Source: Arthrobacter rhizosphaerae (GTDB lineage: Bacteria; Actinomycetota; Actinomycetes; Actinomycetales; Micrococcaceae). From it: 64,000 nucleotides of DNA. The stretch lies in the NCBI RefSeq assembly GCF_023062595.1, contig NZ_JALLAN010000015.1:1-64000 (forward strand). Reading direction: 5' to 3'. Within the stretch, counting starts at the first letter, position 1. Every line of letters starts with the position of its first letter. The translations under genes and the position numbers were made by a program. Of the stretch, positions 48,943 to 56,911 are shown one piece after another. The notes beneath the pieces were generated by a model. It saw only the letters and a program-made list of their open reading frames with translations. It had not been told where the DNA came from and did not search any database.

Positions 48943-49356
48943 ATGACTGAAGAACTCCGCCGGCGCATGGACCGTTTCGTTGAATTCATCAATTCAGCCG
49001 ACGAAAAGATTGGTGATGAAATCATCTCACCGTCGGCCACCTTCCATGTGCCCTTTCTGCCTGAGCCGGTGCAGGGTCCAAGCGGCTACCTCAAAATCAT
49101 CGGGATAATGCGACAGGCGTTTCCCGACGTCCAGTGGTCACTTGAGGAAACCATTATTGAAGGAAACACGGTGGCGGCACGATTCATCCTTCGTGGCACA
49201 CACCAAGGGGAGTTCCTCGGCGTACCTGAAACCGGCAAAACGATCCAAACGCAGGCAATGAACATCTATCGATTCACAAACGGTCAAATCATTGAAGAGC
49301 ACGGCCTCCCGGACCTCTTCGGGCTGATGATGCAAATCCGGCCGATAGACGCCTAG
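48943..49356 (+). CDS. SnoaL-like polyketide cyclase/ester cyclase family protein
   Basis: A 137-residue SnoaL-fold protein with the family pattern GPSGYLKIIGIMRQAFPDVQWSLEETIIEGNTVAARFILRGTHQGEFLGVPETGKTIQTQAMNIYRFTNGQIIEEHGLPDLFGLMMQI. The histidine in HQGEFLG and HGLPD fits the acid/base positions of the group. GAAGGAAGCAAGCAA precedes ATG 48943. Substrate unknown; such enzymes act on aromatic or ester-like small molecules. Confidence 0.85.
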   Translation: MTEELRRRMDRFVEFINSADEKIGDEIISPSATFHVPFLPEPVQGPSGYLKIIGIMRQAFPDVQWSLEETIIEGNTVAARFILRGTHQGEFLGVPETGKTIQTQAMNIYRFTNGQIIEEHGLPDLFGLMMQIRPIDA

Positions 49357-49407
49357 GTGTATTAGCCACGGACGTTAGTAACGGTCGGCGTGGTTAGGTG
49401 ACATGAA

Positions 49408-49690
49408 GAAGACCTCCGAATGGAGCGGGCCTTGTCTAAGAGTCCTGTTCCACAAACGGAGGTCTTCGATCTCCCACCCGAATGCTTTTCTGTGCCCACG
49501 CTGCGTAGTCGATAAAGGGGAGCCGTTGCGGCGGGCGGCGGAACGGTTCCATGTCTCGATTCCAGCGGTACGTGATTGAGCCGAGGCATCAGCGCAGCGA
49601 TGGGCAGGCGTGCTTGACCGAAAGAGAAGGCGCCGGTCGGCGGCAACTTTACTAACTCGGTCTGGCGGTGATGATGCTTTGGGTGGATGA
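49408..49690 (+). mobile_element. Decayed IS481-family insertion sequence
   Basis: Around 49432 the text TGTCTAAGAGTCCTGTTCC resembles an IS481 terminus. One frame reads CVVDKGEPLRRAAERFHVS, matching the IS481 transposase helix-turn-helix start (..VVDEGWSLRRAAERFQVS). A stop follows, then AQRWAGVLDR-like and further traces to about 49680. Most of the transposase and the other end are gone. It lies directly before the SpoIIE gene. Confidence 0.5.
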
Positions 49691-49739: not shown

Positions 49740-51428
49740 ATGAAGGACACACTTGGAGTAAGGCGCGGACGGGTGGCCGTTGCAGACGCGGTAGTGGACG
49801 CCGCCGCCAAGCCCGTTGCCCCTGTCACCACCCAAACCAGAGTCGAGGGCCGAGCCGCGAAGGCCGCTGAGAGGACGGGGAAGCGCGATGCACGGCGCGC
49901 GAAGAGCAACGCGCAGGACCCGCCCCAGGCCCATACCTCCCTTATTAACGTAGAGATCGATCCGAGCGATCCGCTGCTGACATTCCTGCAATCCGAGACA
50001 GGTCCGGTCGAGATCGCCTCGCTGCCTGCATACTCCCCGGCGGTGAACCGGATGAAGGAGCAATGTGTGCAGGTCGTCGTGCCGCTCGTCACCTCCGGCA
50101 AACTCGTCGGCTTGCTCGCGCTCGGCCCACGGCTCTCGGAGCGCTCATACTCGCGATACGACCGTCGCCTGCTCAAGGACCTCGCCAGATATGCCGCGCC
50201 GGCATTGCGGCTCGGCCAGCTCATGCACGAGCAGGAGCGCGAGGCCCGAGCCCATGAGCGCCTCGGTCAGGAGCTTCACGTCGCACAACTCATCCAGCAG
50301 CAATTCCTGCCGGCTGGGCTTCCCGAGCTCGGGGGTTGGCACGTAGCCGCATTCTATGGCCCGGCCCGTACCGTCGGCGGCGACTTTTACGACATCATCC
50401 AACTCGACGACGGCCGGGTCATGGTGGTCACGGGCGATGTGACGGACAAGGGAGTGCCAGCGGCCCTCGTGATGGCAAGCACGTATGGGCTGCTGCGGGC
50501 GACCGCCAAAGTGGCCTCCGCCCCAGGCGAGGTCCTGCGACGAGTGAACGAGCTACTCATCCCGCAGATCCCTATGAACATGTTCGTCACGTGCCTTGTG
50601 CTCGTGATTGACCTGGGAAGCGGCCGCATAGAATTCGCCAATGCCGGCCACAACCTGCCGTACGTCCGTCGAGATGATCAGGTAATCCAGTTGATGGCCC
50701 GCGGCATGCCGCTCGGACTCATGCCCGGCAGCATCTACGACGAGCATGAGATGGTGATCGAGCCAGGCGACATCGTGTTGCTGTACAGCGACGGGATCAC
50801 AGAACAGCACAATGCCGCCGGGGAGATGTTCGGCTTCGACCGCACGGCGGCCCTCGTTGCCGCAGCGACCTCAGGCGATCAACTGGTCGACAGCAGCGTG
50901 CAGGCACTCACAAAGTTCTCGGCCGGAGTAGACCAGGAGGACGACATCACCCTCGTAACGCTCCATCGCGGCCTCGCCGGCACCCCACGAAGCACGGTTT
51001 CGTTCTCCGTGCCGAGTGAAATGGGCAACGAGCGCGAAGTCATGGACAGAGTCGCGGCGATCGTCGAAGGCGCTCTCCCGGAGGACGCACTCTTTGCACT
51101 GAATACAGCGGTTAGCGAGACTACTATGAATGCGATCGAGCACGGGAACCGCGCGCAGACGGCACTTGAAGTCTCGGTGACTGTGCGGCGCACTGTGGAG
51201 ACGATCACCGTCGACATCAGCGATTACGGCCGTGGCAGGCAGCACGAAACCGAGACTCCTGACATCGACCTTAAACTAGCCGGCGAACAGACGCCGCGGG
51301 GTTGGGGTCTATTCCTTGTGGAGCAGCTTGTCGACCGAGTCGAAGAGTTCACCGAAGGTGACCGACACATAGTGCGGCTCATAATGCGCACCGGCGATGG
51401 GTCTGCAATAGAAAGGCAGGAAACATGA
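49740..51428 (+). CDS. SpoIIE-type serine phosphatase with partial GAF and C-terminal anti-sigma-like ATPase domain
   Basis: A 562-residue signalling protein. The first ~65 residues are low-complexity Ala/Arg-rich. Residues ~70-165 look like the later part of a GAF domain (VQVVVPLVTSGKLVGLLALGPRLSE); a coiled linker follows (HEQEREARAHERLGQELHVA). The PP2C/SpoIIE domain carries the metal acids in VGGDFYD (Asp215, Asp218), LLYSDGITE (Asp351) and DDIT (Asp401-402). A GHKL ATPase ends it (NAIEHGN; TPRGWGLFLVEQL). It would dephosphorylate and rephosphorylate the STAS proteins encoded next (four-base overlap). ATG 49740 has GAGGACC upstream. Confidence 0.87.
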   Translation: MKDTLGVRRGRVAVADAVVDAAAKPVAPVTTQTRVEGRAAKAAERTGKRDARRAKSNAQDPPQAHTSLINVEIDPSDPLLTFLQSETGPVEIASLPAYSPAVNRMKEQCVQVVVPLVTSGKLVGLLALGPRLSERSYSRYDRRLLKDLARYAAPALRLGQLMHEQEREARAHERLGQELHVAQLIQQQFLPAGLPELGGWHVAAFYGPARTVGGDFYDIIQLDDGRVMVVTGDVTDKGVPAALVMASTYGLLRATAKVASAPGEVLRRVNELLIPQIPMNMFVTCLVLVIDLGSGRIEFANAGHNLPYVRRDDQVIQLMARGMPLGLMPGSIYDEHEMVIEPGDIVLLYSDGITEQHNAAGEMFGFDRTAALVAAATSGDQLVDSSVQALTKFSAGVDQEDDITLVTLHRGLAGTPRSTVSFSVPSEMGNEREVMDRVAAIVEGALPEDALFALNTAVSETTMNAIEHGNRAQTALEVSVTVRRTVETITVDISDYGRGRQHETETPDIDLKLAGEQTPRGWGLFLVEQLVDRVEEFTEGDRHIVRLIMRTGDGSAIERQET

Positions 51429-51748
51429 GCCTGCACTACGAGCTCGGCAATAGGGACAATGCAGCTGGCGTCCGGCTCATAGGACGGATCGACCGCGATG
51501 CGAGCGACACACTCGACGAGGCCTACGCAGGAGTGGCGAGCGACGCCCCGGCAGCGATCGAGCTGGACTTCAGCGCGGTCGACTACATCAACTCGACAGG
51601 CATCGCCCTCATCATCGCACTGCTCGCCAGAGCGCGCGCAGACGGCGCCCTCTTGCGTGCAGTGGGCCTGACACCTCACTACCAGCACATCTTCGACATC
51701 ACCCGCCTCAGCGATTACATCAAGATCGTCCAGCCCGATCCTAAGTAG
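51425..51748 (+). CDS. STAS domain anti-sigma factor antagonist
   Basis: A 107-residue STAS protein of the SpoIIAA/RsbV type. The phosphorylation-site helix reads LDFSAVDYINSTGIALIIALL, with Ser in the expected position. In the unphosphorylated state such proteins bind an anti-sigma kinase and release a sigma factor or partner. The ATG overlaps the phosphatase stop by four bases, so phosphatase and substrate are made together. Confidence 0.9.
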   Translation: MSLHYELGNRDNAAGVRLIGRIDRDASDTLDEAYAGVASDAPAAIELDFSAVDYINSTGIALIIALLARARADGALLRAVGLTPHYQHIFDITRLSDYIKIVQPDPK

Positions 51749-51756
51749 GAGACAAC

Positions 51757-52107
51757 GTGCCAGCCCATGAAGCAACCATGGCTGTCCTACCCCTTGCACC
51801 CGGTGCAGCGGCGATAGCAATAACCGGCGACGTCACTGCCGCCTGTGAGCAGGAGCTCATGTTGGCCCATGAGCAGGCGACGGACAGCGGCGCAAAGCTC
51901 ATCGTGCTCGACTTCGCAGGCATGGAGTACATGAACAGCGGCGGCATTGGCATGCTCATAACGCTCCTAATTCGCTGTCAGCGGCGACACCAAAAGCTCG
52001 TCGCGTCAGGGCTCACCGAGCACTATCGCCAGATTTTCGAACTCACGCGCCTCGACGAGGCGATCAGCCTGCACGACGACATGGATCAAGCGCTGGCGGC
52101 GCTCTAG
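51757..52107 (+). CDS. Second STAS domain anti-sigma factor antagonist
   Basis: A 116-residue STAS protein with VLDFAGMEYMNSGGIGMLITLL, the Ser-Gly-Gly version of the phosphorylation motif. It begins with GTG 51757, with AGGAGACAAC just upstream, eight bases after the first STAS gene. Two antagonists with different sites (STG and SGG) suggest two partners or a two-stage switch. They share modest similarity, as in RsbS/RsbV-type pairs. Confidence 0.88.
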   Translation: MPAHEATMAVLPLAPGAAAIAITGDVTAACEQELMLAHEQATDSGAKLIVLDFAGMEYMNSGGIGMLITLLIRCQRRHQKLVASGLTEHYRQIFELTRLDEAISLHDDMDQALAAL

Positions 52108-52124
52108 CAATGGAGGACACCGGA

Positions 52125-52850
52125 ATGGACCCCCGAAGCCCGGAACAGAACGGGCAGAGAGACATAGAAAACTGGGCGGCAAAGGTTGACCGACTGCACG
52201 TCGCGGACGACCTGCGCACCTACGGCTACAACATCGAGGGCAGACGAATCGCAGGGCCGATGAACGGCTTCGGCCGCCTGTGGCAACGCACTTACACTGC
52301 CGACATCGGCACGGCGGCCACTCCGGAGCGGGTCGTGGCTGACTGGCGTGCGCACTTCGGAGACTACTGGCCGAGGATGGGCCGCTTCCACGGCACGATC
52401 TCGGCGATCAATCCCGGCGACGTAGCACCGCTCACAGCGGTAGGTGTGACGACCGGGATCATGGTGCTGTACGCGGACGATACGTCGTTCACGTTCCTAA
52501 CACCAGAAGGTCACATGTTCGCGGCGTTGATCACGTTCTCATGCGAGTCCTCTACAAGCGGCGGGACAATCGAACAGATACGGATGCTGCTGCGCAGCTC
52601 GGATCCTATCTTCGAGGCTTTGTGGCCGCTCACGCGTCGTGGGGAAGATATCTTCTGGCCGCGCACTCTGAAGAACCTGGCCGCCGCCCACGGGGTCCAC
52701 AACGTGACGGTCCAAGAGCACACCGAGTGCATCGACCGCAGGCGCCTCTGGAAGAACTGGTCCAACGTCCGCTACAACGCCGGCCTCCGCACAATAGGGC
52801 ACACGTTCACCGTCCCATTCCGCCCGCACACAGGAAAGAGCGCGAACTGA
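52125..52850 (+). CDS. Hypothetical protein in the STAS/SpoIIE locus
   Basis: A 241-residue soluble protein that I do not recognise. ATG 52125 has GGAGG eight bases upstream; an in-frame ATG at 52110 lies before that ribosome site. The middle has alternating strands (GTISAINPGDVAPLTAVGV, TTGIMVLYADDTSFTFLTPEG, MFAALITFSCES), then helices and an ISDxRR-like basic stretch (CIDRRRLWKNWSNVRYN). The strands and a FHGTIS/FTVPF layout could fit a lipid- or ligand-binding START-like fold. It is tightly packed between STAS and membrane genes, so it probably belongs to the signalling module. Confidence 0.62.
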   Translation: MDPRSPEQNGQRDIENWAAKVDRLHVADDLRTYGYNIEGRRIAGPMNGFGRLWQRTYTADIGTAATPERVVADWRAHFGDYWPRMGRFHGTISAINPGDVAPLTAVGVTTGIMVLYADDTSFTFLTPEGHMFAALITFSCESSTSGGTIEQIRMLLRSSDPIFEALWPLTRRGEDIFWPRTLKNLAAAHGVHNVTVQEHTECIDRRRLWKNWSNVRYNAGLRTIGHTFTVPFRPHTGKSAN

Positions 52851-52857
52851 TGTCGCC

Positions 52858-54183
52858 GTGCGAAGTCCCGCGGCAGCTCTCCACCAGGAGACACTGGGCA
52901 AATATCGGTGCAGCGTGAAGCACGCCTGGCCAGCACACGTGCTCGGTGTACTCGTACTCGCCGTGCTCGCCGCTGCAGTGACGAGCTGGCCGCCTCCTCC
53001 GCAATTCTGGACAGGGACCCCAGCTTGGGGATTCCTCGGATTCCTACCCATCATGCTCGTTGTCGGCTGGTTCCTGGCCGTGAAGCTGCCGAGTCACCCC
53101 CTCGGCTGGCTCATCATGATGGTGCCGGCACTTTTCGCGCTCCAAGTGCCGCTAGACCTCCTCGGCCACGCGCTGCTGCCCGTCGCGCCCGATGTCGCCG
53201 CATGGCTACTCTCATACGGGTCCTCCACTGGAGCGACGCCGCTCCACGGTTTCCCCGGCCCCGACCGCCTGGACATCGACACTTGGTCGTGGCTGCTGCC
53301 GGTGGGGCTCATGTTGACCCAGATCCCGCTGCGATTCCCCACCGGACAGCTACCCTCGCCGAAATGGCGGTGGTTCTCCTGGTACTCGGTCGCGGCGCTC
53401 GTCGCCTCCACCGCACTCCTATCGACCATGACGGCCGAGGTATACCCCGGCGTCCCCAACCCCATGTATTTGCCGGGCGTCAGCGGGCAACTGCAACCTC
53501 AGATTGTTGTGGCCACCTGTCTGTACCCTGTGGCCGTCATCGGCTCAATCGGGTCACTGATTGTTCGCTACAGGCGCGCCGACGCACCCACGCGCGCCCA
53601 GGTGCGGTGGGTGATGTGGTCAGTGACCATGGCTTGCGCGGCATTCGCTACCGACGGGTTACTGCCAGTTGAGTTCACAATCGTCCATGACTGGATTCTG
53701 CTGTTGTTCGCGCTCATCCCGGTCTCTATTATGGTCGCCGTGCTCCGCTACCGCTTATACGCGATTGACAGCATCATCTCCCGCACAGCGGCGTACGTTA
53801 TCGTCACGCTTCTGGTGGTCGGGGTCTACGCGCTCGTCGTGACCTCGATGACCTCAGTCTTACCGAACCTCCCTTCGATCGGGGTCGCGCTCGCAACCCT
53901 CGCTTCCGCCGCGCTCTTCCTCCCCGTGCTGCGCTGGGTACAGCGTGGGGTCGACCGGCACTTCGACCGAGAGCGGTACGACGCACAGATGGTGCTCGAG
54001 GCCTTCGGTGAGCACCTGCGCAGTGATGTCCACCCCGACTCAACCGGAGACGAGCTCATGGAGGCCGTGAAGAAGGTCTTGCACCCTGAAGCGATCGGAC
54101 TCTGGACGCCGGGAAGTGGCGATGAACGAGACGCTGTGCCCGGTGCGGATTTGGGGGGCCTTAGCGGGTCTCGTTCTGGGTGA
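52858..54183 (+). CDS. Multi-helix membrane protein resembling the N-terminal half of a sensor phosphatase
   Basis: A 441-residue protein with about eight hydrophobic segments over residues 20-345, then a cytoplasmic helix (LRWVQRGVDRHFDRERYDAQMVLEAFGEHLRSDV) and MEAVKKVLHPEAIGLWTPG, which is how a GAF domain begins. The frame then ends in a nonsense-like tail (DLGGLSGSRSG). In related proteins this membrane part runs straight into GAF, SpoIIE and ATPase domains. Here those lie in the gene at 49740-51428, upstream. GTG 52858 is taken; GTG 52915 is possible. Confidence 0.7.
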   Translation: MRSPAAALHQETLGKYRCSVKHAWPAHVLGVLVLAVLAAAVTSWPPPPQFWTGTPAWGFLGFLPIMLVVGWFLAVKLPSHPLGWLIMMVPALFALQVPLDLLGHALLPVAPDVAAWLLSYGSSTGATPLHGFPGPDRLDIDTWSWLLPVGLMLTQIPLRFPTGQLPSPKWRWFSWYSVAALVASTALLSTMTAEVYPGVPNPMYLPGVSGQLQPQIVVATCLYPVAVIGSIGSLIVRYRRADAPTRAQVRWVMWSVTMACAAFATDGLLPVEFTIVHDWILLLFALIPVSIMVAVLRYRLYAIDSIISRTAAYVIVTLLVVGVYALVVTSMTSVLPNLPSIGVALATLASAALFLPVLRWVQRGVDRHFDRERYDAQMVLEAFGEHLRSDVHPDSTGDELMEAVKKVLHPEAIGLWTPGSGDERDAVPGADLGGLSGSRSG

Positions 54184-54543: not shown

Positions 54544-55323
54544 TCACCTGCGTTGGCTTTCCCGCCCCAACAGCTTGTTGATCCGTGCCCCTGTTTCCAT
54601 GACAAGGGGCGCTACCCGTTCTATCGTGGCGGGTGTCATCTCGTGATCAAGCGCGGAAGTGCTGAGTCCGCCGATGACTCTTCCGCTCGCGTCCTGGAGT
54701 GCAACCCCAACGCACCTGATGTGGAGCTCGTTTTCCTCGTCGTCCACGGCCCACCCCCGTCGGCGGATGAGTTCCACCTGGTTCCAGAGGAGGCTCTTGG
54801 ACATAATCGTGGATCGTGTTCGGCGTTTCAGTTGCGCGGCTTTCAACAGGTCGCGGCTTGTTTGCTCGTCGAGAGCGGCCAGTATCGCCTTTCCAATGGC
54901 GGTGGACCATAGCGGAATGGTGTCGCCAACCCTGGAGCGCATTTGGTAGGCGGCTGGCCCGTCAATTTTTGCGACGTAACTCAACTCGTTATGTGCAAAT
55001 CGTGCCATGTGGACGGTGAAACCAACGCGGTCCCGCAGCGCTTGAAGTTCGGGCATTGCCATGCGGACAAGTTGTTCGTCATTCTGGAGCAACGATAAAA
55101 GCCCTTGGACACGCCGTCCTGGACGATAGGCCCTCTCCTGGTCCTGTTCCACCCAGCGATTCTCCACGAGGTCACTCAGGATGCGGTGGACGGTACTGAC
55201 GGACAATCCGGTCTCGGAGGCAATGTCAGAGATCCTGTGGTGGGCAGGCACCGCCTCCAACACCTTGAGGCCTTTCATCAGTGCGGACAGTTGGGGCTCC
55301 GCAGGCCCCGATTCGGTTGTCAC
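54544..55323 (-). CDS. IclR family regulator
   Basis: A 259-residue IclR protein. The N-terminal winged helix reads LMKGLKVLEAVPAHHRISDIASETGLSVSTVHRILSDLVENRWV; the GAF-like effector domain follows (GFTVHMARFAHNELSYVAKIDGP .. PLWSTAIGKAILAAL). The start is GTG 55323, overlapping the kduD stop by four bases. IclR members such as KdgR control pectin and uronate genes, so it probably represses both kdu genes and the divergent ABC/lyase operon through the dyad near 57036, with a uronate intermediate as inducer. Confidence 0.88.
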   Translation of the reverse strand: MTTESGPAEPQLSALMKGLKVLEAVPAHHRISDIASETGLSVSTVHRILSDLVENRWVEQDQERAYRPGRRVQGLLSLLQNDEQLVRMAMPELQALRDRVGFTVHMARFAHNELSYVAKIDGPAAYQMRSRVGDTIPLWSTAIGKAILAALDEQTSRDLLKAAQLKRRTRSTIMSKSLLWNQVELIRRRGWAVDDEENELHIRCVGVALQDASGRVIGGLSTSALDHEMTPATIERVAPLVMETGARINKLLGRESQRR

Positions 55324-56102
55324 CTGCCCAGCCACCCGCCGTCGACAACCAGAACGTGGCCGTTGATATATGCCGCCTCCGGCCCAGCAAGGAAGGCCAC
55401 GCTGCCAGCGATATCCTCCGGCGAACCCCATCGCCCTGCGGGGATGCGCTCACGGATTGAGCGCTCCCTTTCGGGGTCGTCGCGCAATGCTTCAGTGTTA
55501 TTGGTTGCAATGTATCCAGGGGCGATAGCGTTCACCGTCACCCCGTGGGATGCCCACTCGTTGGCGAGGGCTTTAGTCAGGCCCACCACCGCGTGTTTCG
55601 ACGCCGTGTAGGAGGGAACGTTTATTCCTCCCTGGAATGAGAGGAGTGAGGCGATGGAAATGATCCTGCCGTGTCCCCGGTTGACCATCTGGGTGCCGAA
55701 GACCTGGCTCAGGTGCCAGACGGTGTCGAGGTTCAGGTTCAGGACCCGGTCCCAGGCCTCGCTGGCGTGGGCTGCGGCCGGCTCGCGGTGAATTGTTCCG
55801 GCGTTGTTGACCAGGATATCCACCGGTCCTGATGTCACGAGCCGTTCCGCATTGGCACGGGCATCGGCAGGATCGCCAAGGTCCGATGTCACAACGTCGA
55901 TTTTGACACCATGGCCTGAAAGCAGCTCTGCGGTCTGCGCCATGTCCCGATGTCCCCACAGGACGAGATCGGCGCCAGCGCGGGCGAGCCGCTCCGCGCA
56001 CGCGAGTCCGATTCCTGTCCGTGCCCCGGTAACCACGGCGCGTTGACCCTGAAGTGGACGGGACTGGGTGCTGGATGATTCCATGCTGGCCCCGCTGTTC
56101 AT
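55320..56102 (-). CDS. kduD: 2-deoxy-D-gluconate 3-dehydrogenase (KduD)
   Basis: A 260-residue SDR with RAVVTGARTGIGLACAERLA, DILVNNAGTIHREPA, the catalytic SIASLLSFQGG and YTASKHAVVGLTKALANEWA, and the KduD-typical NAIAPGYIATNNTEALRDDPER and ERIPAGRWG. It reduces 3-deoxy-D-glycero-2,5-hexodiulosonate (DKII) to 2-keto-3-deoxygluconate. Start ATG 56102 overlaps the kduI stop by four bases, a kduI-kduD coupling that supports the assignment. No kdgK or kdgA is in the window. Confidence 0.92.
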   Translation of the reverse strand: MNSGASMESSSTQSRPLQGQRAVVTGARTGIGLACAERLARAGADLVLWGHRDMAQTAELLSGHGVKIDVVTSDLGDPADARANAERLVTSGPVDILVNNAGTIHREPAAAHASEAWDRVLNLNLDTVWHLSQVFGTQMVNRGHGRIISIASLLSFQGGINVPSYTASKHAVVGLTKALANEWASHGVTVNAIAPGYIATNNTEALRDDPERERSIRERIPAGRWGSPEDIAGSVAFLAGPEAAYINGHVLVVDGGWLGR

Positions 56103-56911
56103 CGAAGGTTTCCCGAGCTGACGGAATCGACGTCGCTGTAGTCGATGTTCTCTCCGGCCATCGCCCACACAAACGAATACGCACTGGTGCCGCTGCCACT
56201 GTGGATGGACCACGGTGGTGAAACCACAGCGTCCCGGTCGCGCAGCAACAGGTGACGTGTGCTCTCCGGCTGGCCCATGAGGTGGACAAGAAGGGCGTCA
56301 CCGAGCCCGTCGTAAAAGTAGATTTCTGTCCGACGGTCGTGCAGGTGGGCCGGCATGGTATTCCAGACAGAACCCTGCTTCAGGGTAGTAATGCCAAGGA
56401 CCAGCTGATTGGATTCAATTCCGTCGGCGTGAACGTACTTGCGAATAACGCGTTCATTGGCCTCTTCTGACGAGCCCAGATGCAGGGCTGCGGCCTCATC
56501 GTGGGAAGCAAGCCGCGCTGCTGTTCGTCGGTGCGCGGGGGCAGAAACGATGTATACGGCCCCCGTATCGGACAGCGTCACCGACTTCGTTCCGCACGGC
56601 AGGTATAGGACGTCATGCCGGCCAACCTTCCAGGTTTCCCCGTCGGCGGTCACCGACACGGCGCCGTCAAGGCCAACGAGGGCCAGTTCGCGTCGATCCA
56701 GGAAGTTCCCGGACCGCAACTCGGTAGGAGCCTCAAGCTCGATCGGATCCCCTGTTGGCACGGCCCCTCCCACGACCATCCTGTCGTCGTGGGCGTAGGC
56801 GAGCCGGATCTCCCCGGGTGCGAACAGGTCCGAGACTACAAAGCGCTGGTGCAGCTCCCTGGAGTCGAGGCGGGCCAGGTCATCAGGGTGGGTGCTCCAC
56901 AGGCGTTTCAC
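56099..56911 (-). CDS. kduI: 5-keto-4-deoxyuronate isomerase (KduI)
   Basis: A 270-residue cupin isomerase converting 5-keto-4-deoxyuronate to DKII. It has the KduI opening (STHPDDLARLDSRELHQRFVVSDLF), SGNFLDRRELALVG and the zinc site MPAHLHDRRTEIYFY with His-x-His and Glu. Length equals the usual ~275. It is the first gene of the leftward kduI-kduD-iclR operon, diverging from a sugar ABC importer. Confidence 0.94.
   Translation of the reverse strand: MKRLWSTHPDDLARLDSRELHQRFVVSDLFAPGEIRLAYAHDDRMVVGGAVPTGDPIELEAPTELRSGNFLDRRELALVGLDGAVSVTADGETWKVGRHDVLYLPCGTKSVTLSDTGAVYIVSAPAHRRTAARLASHDEAAALHLGSSEEANERVIRKYVHADGIESNQLVLGITTLKQGSVWNTMPAHLHDRRTEIYFYDGLGDALLVHLMGQPESTRHLLLRDRDAVVSPPWSIHSGSGTSAYSFVWAMAGENIDYSDVDSVSSGNLR

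Follow-up and report, generated by a model that had tools for sequence, protein, structure and literature searches.

A partner-switching gene cluster in Arthrobacter rhizosphaerae with a sensory GAF domain possibly divided between two proteins

The window analyzed here, a stretch of 64,000 nucleotides from Arthrobacter rhizosphaerae (contig NZ_JALLAN010000015.1), contains five plus-strand genes that apparently make up an intact representative of an old partner-switching cluster, in which one sensory domain may be divided between two proteins. The genes run in the order SPO, STAS1, STAS2, UNK, and MEM, where SPO joins part of a GAF domain to SpoIIE and HATPase domains, UNK is an unnamed gene, and MEM encodes a membrane protein; because they are closely spaced and on the same strand, they probably constitute one operon. 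A sequence-only reading had taken this locus for the product of a rearrangement, but we are highly confident that its genes are those of an old module rather than the outcome of a permutation in this genome, such that the supposed rearrangement is replaced by an apparently intact gene cluster. The genetics of the module, namely its content, gene order, gene ends, intact catalytic positions, fusions, and co-occurrence, are well supported. As to how it works, we lean modestly toward a partner-switching mechanism in which a sensory GAF domain is divided between MEM and SPO, with the tail of MEM docking to complete the domain and the signal passing through a linker. The docking, the flow of the signal, the role of UNK, and the downstream target are what we infer.

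The gene cluster and its relatives

SPO (49740-51428; frame open from 49668) encodes the later part of a GAF domain, a linker, a SpoIIE phosphatase domain of the PP2C type, and a HATPase domain. That the gene starts mid-GAF, as the sequence-only reading had noticed, is confirmed by Pfam: at 49926-50207 the GAF profile is matched at 64-133 of 133, GAF_3 at 48-127 of 129, and GAF_2 at 91-135 of 136, and these are followed by the SpoIIE domain (50406-50969; PF07228, E 9.3e-52) and an RsbW-like HATPase domain (51012-51383; PF13581, HATPase_c_2, E 1.7e-18). The two STAS proteins are encoded at 51425-51748 (PF13466, E 2.6e-13) and 51757-52107 (PF13466, E 1.4e-11), with probable phosphoacceptor serines in the motifs YINST and YMNSG that fall in the same alignment column. 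UNK occupies 52110-52850 and MEM, the multi-pass membrane sensor half, 52858-54183. Pfam and the open reading frames bore out the coordinates and domains given earlier for the whole series of catalytic C-terminal half, two STAS genes, unknown gene, and N-terminal half.

The alignment shows the metal-site and ATP-site positions of the window SPO to be intact. Across its 117 rows, every residue in the metal-binding aspartate columns of the PP2C domain is D, save one H among 112 in the last column, and the N, D, G, and G columns of the HATPase are kept in 63 rows, that is, in all with letters at those positions. The phosphoacceptor column of the STAS proteins holds serine in 158 of 160 aligned rows and a gap in the other 2. 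Together, a PP2C domain with its metal aspartates, an RsbW-like HATPase with its N and G boxes, and STAS proteins with their serine are the composition by which we recognize a module of the RsbU/SpoIIE type. Separately, the HATPase part is a following frame of its own in L083-L088, L090, L092, L093, L119, L120, and L137; this is a second natural division point of SPO, yielding its own RsbW-like protein, although many of these genomes are drafts and single cases may be errors.

Neither MEM nor UNK reached the cut-off of any curated family in Pfam or NCBIfam. The sole Pfam match of MEM was at chance level (E 0.36), and from its hydrophobic make-up and the helices modeled in a fused homologue it is predicted to be a membrane protein; it is the single MEM match in its genome at E 0.001. 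The NCBIfam profile for PrsK (TIGR02916, 679 positions) aligns with MEM at 201-343 and with SPO at 404-470, at 21.1 and 15.7 bits against a cut-off of 300 bits. As had been proposed, the two genes do resemble opposite ends of a single architecture with their order reversed.

The sequence-only reading accounted for this reverse order by supposing that one fused gene was broken in this genome and its halves swapped, either through circular permutation or through a tandem duplication with end deletions. The observation that it had itself named as contrary, relatives in which the genes are likewise separate and identically ordered, is what we found in G101 and G118, two genomes from another family of the same taxonomic order and the nearest relatives found. 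Both carry SPO, STAS, STAS, UNK, and MEM arranged as in the window, the end point of MEM and the part of the GAF domain in which SPO starts being shared as well, and neither a permutation nor a duplication in this genome fits that finding. Identity to the window proteins is 64% for each SPO and 59% for UNK, and for the MEM proteins, which occupy the corresponding position in the gene series, it is 49% in G101 and 45% in G118. The G101 contig starts 33 bases ahead of SPO, leaving an upstream MEM possible there; in G118 no MEM is present in the 1.1 kb upstream of SPO. Since G101 and G118 share both the gene order and the gene ends, the arrangement in the window was inherited or acquired as it stands.

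To place these loci in a wider context, we surveyed 396 genomes drawn from the phylum at a threshold of E 1e-60 and found SPO in 34 of them. Thirty-two longer stretches were fetched from 29 of the 33 other SPO genomes (G401, G449, G485, and G527 were left out); with the G101 and G118 regions, the best 80 named loci from a contig scan, and the window, this gave 115 stretches, which were searched with profiles grown from the window's proteins, the duplicate loci L097, L123, and L125 being dropped from the counts. The usual module reads n MEM genes, SPO, STAS, STAS, UNK (one or two), and m MEM genes. Among the best 80 named loci it recurs in Actinomycetota, Chloroflexota, and other records, mostly metagenome-assembled; examples include Kribbella sp. 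(L100, five MEM upstream), Blastococcus saxobsidens (L099, two MEM downstream), an uncultured Nocardioidaceae genome (L096, eight MEM), Rubrobacter, and genomes of Chloroflexota.

Over the 66 rows of the SPO tree, MEM lies upstream in 26, downstream in 14, on both sides in 5, and fused to SPO in 5, and none was seen in 16, meaning no same-strand MEM between 1,500 bases upstream and 6,500 bases downstream of SPO. In some of the last group MEM stands at a greater distance or on the opposite strand (L069, L075, L102, L104, L107, L108, and L122), and some are situated close to the end of a contig. In the tree, G101 and G118 form a group with the window (100/100), which L119 and L120 join (100/99), and MEM is downstream in four of these five; in L120, where none was seen, the contig ends 1.8 kb past the phosphatase part. 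On this one tree, in which 21 of 63 inner branches were drawn open for low support, the side of MEM changes 9 times by parsimony among rows of known side.

The end of MEM, by comparison, hardly varies. Duplicate loci aside, there are 171 MEM matches: 6 are in SPO frames, 21 fall short of profile position 395, and all of the remaining 144 separate matches end within a tail of 0 to 38 residues (median, 3). The short ones are mostly fragments at contig ends or broken frames, with an exception on the minus strand of L115, which falls short of position 395 and runs on for 298 residues into something else. The earlier claim that the window MEM ends where a GAF domain begins stands, in that this MEM does end just after KVLHPEAIGLWTPG, but what had looked like decay, the gene then losing its sense, does not, since the end near ..GLW is the usual one of the family (144/144). 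The C termini are GLWVPGRPR in G101 and GLWVRGGAR in G118, while the window has GLWTPG followed by a run-on of 22 codons past the usual end (54115-54180, plus strand), which is absent in both relatives. The constant MEM ends, together with the 9 changes of side, indicate that the division into two genes is old and that their order is ordinary variation.

A break in this genome retains some points in its favor, in that the halves are complementary within one architecture and stand in reverse order, and that a mobile-element trace is present at the left edge. The remnant lies directly before SPO on the plus strand (49351-49655, right limit approximate). Its first part, 49351-49483, is 80% identical to an intergenic stretch elsewhere in the same genome (G000:C23:69951-70081) and has the arms GAAGACCTCCG and CGGAGGTCTTC; it looks like the end of a mobile element. 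A frame from 49382 reads through to VVDKGEPLRRAAERFHVSIPAV and stops soon after, and the short frame that follows 49351-49483 matched HTH_28 alone, below the cut-off (E 0.0071). Of the IS481 scar described earlier, the mobile-element trace is plausible but weak, and IS481 is kept as a tentative name. Set against these points, the same genes and order in G101 and G118, the own constant end of MEM and own start of SPO, and the rarity of fusions (5 of 66 SPO rows, separate genes being the rule in the other 61) make a local break and swap very improbable. A split transmembrane phosphatase working in trans, which had been offered as its functional consequence, is still our best guess at function, but as an old property of the family and not a local accident.

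The divided GAF domain

Both the MEM and the SPO profile matched in seven open frames, five of which we accepted as fusions (L095, L121, L126, L130, and L160). The other two were rejected: in L074 (993-residue frame) the MEM part is not read through, and in L071, a genome from the same genus group, the two are encoded separately; and in the minus-strand frame of L115 SPO was matched at profile positions 44-102 only (E 4.5e-05). Proteins with the whole architecture do exist, as the sequence-only reading had said, although separate genes are the usual state among the SPO rows. Its expectation of a single homologue spanning both window proteins was largely confirmed by L126, an 844-residue protein from Chloroflexota, along which, in an alignment, MEM rows extend from about 100 to 465 and SPO rows from 475/476 to the end. 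Besides L126, this alignment comprised two other fusions together with 25 MEM and 21 SPO rows; the last MEM residues, past 465, are scattered to 506 and from 541 on, and one SPO row has three stray residues at 325-327. Together with the four other fusions, the coverage of L126 indicates that MEM and SPO are parts of one architecture. By parsimony the fusions require 4 changes, of which well-supported branches force 1, and L160, L095, and L126 are on long branches. L126 also has a long extra N-terminal part ahead of the MEM region (residues 1-140), modeled with low confidence.

The fusions also suggest where the boundary between the two proteins falls. In three of the four fusions scanned (L095, L121, L126, and L130), the GAF match is full length across the junction, with Pfam coverage of 1-133 in L095 and 2-130 in both L121 and L130. 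Separate SPO proteins cover the later part: 64-133 in the window, 78-133 in L100 and L101, 82-132 in L114, and 74-132 in L068, and the GAF_3 matches in the same five proteins begin at 36-71 of 129. As the GAF match in L095, L121, and L130 takes in the final 29-30 residues of the MEM profile match, MEM would carry roughly the first 30 residues of the domain and SPO the later part. By comparison with these three fusions, the C-terminal tail of the window MEM (54040-54114, plus strand) would correspond to the first GAF helix and strand. In the AlphaFold2 model of L126 the MEM end is predicted as a helix (442-457) and a strand (462-466), and the SPO part as two strands (524-530 and 533-540) and a helix (551-601); by block, the predicted local distance difference test (pLDDT) is 84-96 for the GAF elements and below 60 over most of the first 190 residues. 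A Foldseek search with this model gave phosphatase entries in all 50 matches listed and nothing on GAF. Likewise with a related membrane part, L176 and L180 (and, by likeness, L177 and L183) join MEM, a full-length GAF match (2-132 in L176 and L180), and a histidine kinase in one protein.

SPO has a start of its own. In all 29 pairs with MEM no more than 1,500 bases upstream, an ATG for SPO lies 27-58 codons ahead of its GAF part and not before the MEM stop; relative to the upstream MEM, the SPO frames are spread 10/11/8 over the three possibilities. In 56 of 59 eligible proteins, the SPO leader before the GAF part has a median length of 37.5 residues and a median net charge of +3, such leaders being short and mostly basic.

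Taken together, we suggest the following mechanism. MEM would be a membrane sensor made as a separate protein, the cytoplasmic end of which is the first GAF helix and strand, and SPO would run from the later GAF part through a long helical linker to the PP2C phosphatase and the RsbW-like kinase. Most likely, the truncated GAF of SPO serves as docking site for the MEM tail, which completes the domain in trans, and a membrane signal would then change the linker and the phosphatase dimer and so alter the phosphorylation of both STAS proteins, which the HATPase would rephosphorylate. Where a genome has many MEM genes, these may be exchangeable inputs to one enzyme, and UNK may be a further dedicated component, perhaps a ligand-binding regulator.

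Co-occurrence is consistent with cooperation of these proteins. At E 1e-40, MEM is found in 34 of 34 SPO genomes and in 58 of the 362 others (Fisher, 1e-24), and UNK, at E 1e-15, in 32 of 34 (not G231 or G526) and in 1 of 362. That one, G280, has a partial UNK match (88-241), and its SpoIIE proteins (best E 7.8e-50) lack the early SPO positions. A search of 13 genomes found MEM absent in 3, those of L138, L142, and L145, the SpoIIE proteins of which match SPO from positions 42, 38, and 13 on with 35 to 38% identity; the genome of L169 has one MEM match, in a 737-residue frame. In L114, from the Ktedonobacterales, no MEM was found within 10 kb of SPO, and the genome has 7 MEM matches elsewhere, 6 of them in frames of 437-470 residues. 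Tandem MEM paralogues stand before one SPO in L096 (eight), L100 (five), and L080 (seven, plus one cut at the edge of the stretch), and all copies in these runs share the same C-terminal end.

Several observations weigh against completion of the GAF domain by MEM. Positions from about 30 to 64-82 of the domain (PF01590) are in neither half, so that the completed domain would be a reduced one, and the fusion L126 itself matches GAF at 77-133 only. The L126 model (mean pLDDT 77.2; predicted template modeling score 0.54) is of one fused chain and is poor over its first ~190 residues. The Fisher test ignores relatedness among the genomes, and the 58 SPO-less genomes with MEM-like proteins include some in which these are within histidine kinases. 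In three drafts (G164, G307, and G322; 83-98% complete), separate MEM frames were found at E 1e-110 or better, and a closer search there gave only SpoIIE proteins without the early SPO positions, their matches to SPO beginning at 43 or later (best E 6.8e-55). The presence of MEM without such an SPO in these three led us to lower our confidence in the divided domain slightly, and that in a shared plug, discussed below, by a smaller step.

Two other accounts of the association must be weighed here. MEM and SPO could cooperate without completing a GAF domain, the tail being a leftover of an old fission or serving another use and the contact lying elsewhere, for example at the basic SPO leader. 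The part of the domain absent from both halves and the short, mostly basic leaders are in keeping with this, but the MEM end is constant over 144 matches, which makes a useless leftover unlikely, and in L130 a short linker connects the same MEM and SPO ends, with GAF still matched at 2-130; we consider such cooperation possible but rather unlikely. Less probable again, and in our view doubtful, is that MEM and SPO share a cluster and not a pathway, with MEM proteins being separate sensors or transporters that travel along. Runs of up to eight MEM genes (L096), a MEM far from SPO (L114), and the 58 of 362 genomes with MEM but no SPO, some as separate genes, would suit that idea, whereas the fusions of MEM with SPO and the presence of MEM in every SPO genome speak for a common pathway. 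The divided GAF domain therefore remains the reading toward which we lean. Its extension, in which the domain acts as a plug by which many MEM proteins (up to eight in a row, or scattered), all with the same terminal helix and strand, feed one SPO hub and in which UNK in addition acts on the PP2C domain as PYL does in plants, we put forward only tentatively.

UNK and the surroundings of the cluster

UNK (52110-52850, plus strand) is nearly confined to SPO genomes. It had no match in Pfam or NCBIfam at E 1, and a sequence search of the PDB returned nothing (best E 0.28). An AlphaFold2 model built from 30 sequences (mean pLDDT 88.7) resembles the Bet v 1/START fold over residues 54-198 (Foldseek and VIA-align), with a best Z of 12.8 for 7tmu at a root mean square deviation of 2.6 over 134 residues; comparison with PYL13 in complex with a PP2C gave Z 12.1 (VIA-align) at 13% identity. 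Of 1,000 compared chains, 364 reached Z 8 or more. As the superfamily is large, what we claim for UNK is the fold alone: a predicted START/SRPBCC helix-grip fold of the Bet v 1/PYL type. As UNK is encoded beside a PP2C gene and nearly confined to SPO genomes, a regulatory role is worth testing.

In 149 genomes, comprising the window's own and its relatives, UNK was found at E 0.001 in 4; apart from the window's own genome, these are G101, G118, and, with a weak match, G146. Within the window's genus, no other genome among the 149 yielded UNK, suggesting that the locus was probably acquired. The locus had no match in the plasmid collection searched, and base composition is uninformative on transfer (63.0% G+C in the locus versus 60.0% in the window, with overlapping values for the neighbors). 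As to a link with defense, PADLOC gave a weak ZorB match alone (E 0.003). Outside the module, the left neighbor is a SnoaL-like gene (48943-49356), and on the right, on the minus strand, lie genes for an IclR regulator, a short-chain dehydrogenase, and a KduI-like protein (54544-56911).

Comparison with known systems

Searches of the openly licensed literature gave no paper with a title describing such a module, a divided GAF domain, or a link between START/SRPBCC proteins and SpoIIE, and the main text of PMC12088040 mentions neither GAF nor STAS. As far as the accessible parts of the literature describe them, partner-switching systems have a phosphatase with its own sensory domain or with a cytoplasmic partner; here the break appears to lie within a domain, and several sensors may serve one enzyme. 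If this reading is true, a break between sensor and enzyme inside a domain would be a simple way of adding inputs to a signaling hub. It also points to a role for MEM and UNK, two proteins without a curated family, the latter with a receptor-like fold beside a PP2C.

The closest comparison is with RsbU-RsbW-RsbV and with Rv1364c of Mycobacterium tuberculosis, which, according to the accessible part of PMC12143880, has PAS, anti-sigma, and anti-anti-sigma domains, and the RsbU and RsbW domains of which (PDB 3ke6) were found in the Foldseek search with the L126 model. As there, a PP2C domain is joined to an RsbW-like HATPase, the STAS proteins are the likely substrates, and an N-terminal sensory domain precedes a helical linker; in STAS systems the phosphatase targets a conserved serine, as the available text of PMC8256260 has it. 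Unlike those systems, SPO has the later GAF part alone, with the first part apparently on a separate membrane protein, and the module includes two separate STAS genes and a gene with a predicted START/SRPBCC fold.

PrsK-type kinases (TIGR02916) and the MEM-GAF-HisKA_3 kinases L176 and L180 resemble the cluster in having a related membrane part followed by GAF. They differ from it in that L176 and L180 have a full-length GAF match within a single protein and a histidine kinase as output, and the window proteins score far below the cut-off of the PrsK profile. The abscisic acid receptors PYR/PYL share with UNK its predicted fold, which here, too, is encoded beside a PP2C, but the modeled likeness of UNK is one of fold alone at 13% identity and extends to Bet v 1 proteins, aromatase/cyclases, and others.

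A precedent for the proposed mechanism is the activation of RsbU in trans by RsbT. In the part of PMC12143880 at hand, phosphatases of the RsbU type are described as being switched via helical linkers, with a partner driving the linkers into a coiled coil that dimerizes the phosphatase; action through such linkers is also proposed for GAF, PAS, and other domains. In SPO, likewise, a partner protein would switch a PP2C domain through a helical linker; unlike RsbT, however, the partner that we propose from sequence comparison is a multi-pass membrane protein, and it would supply the missing part of the GAF domain itself.

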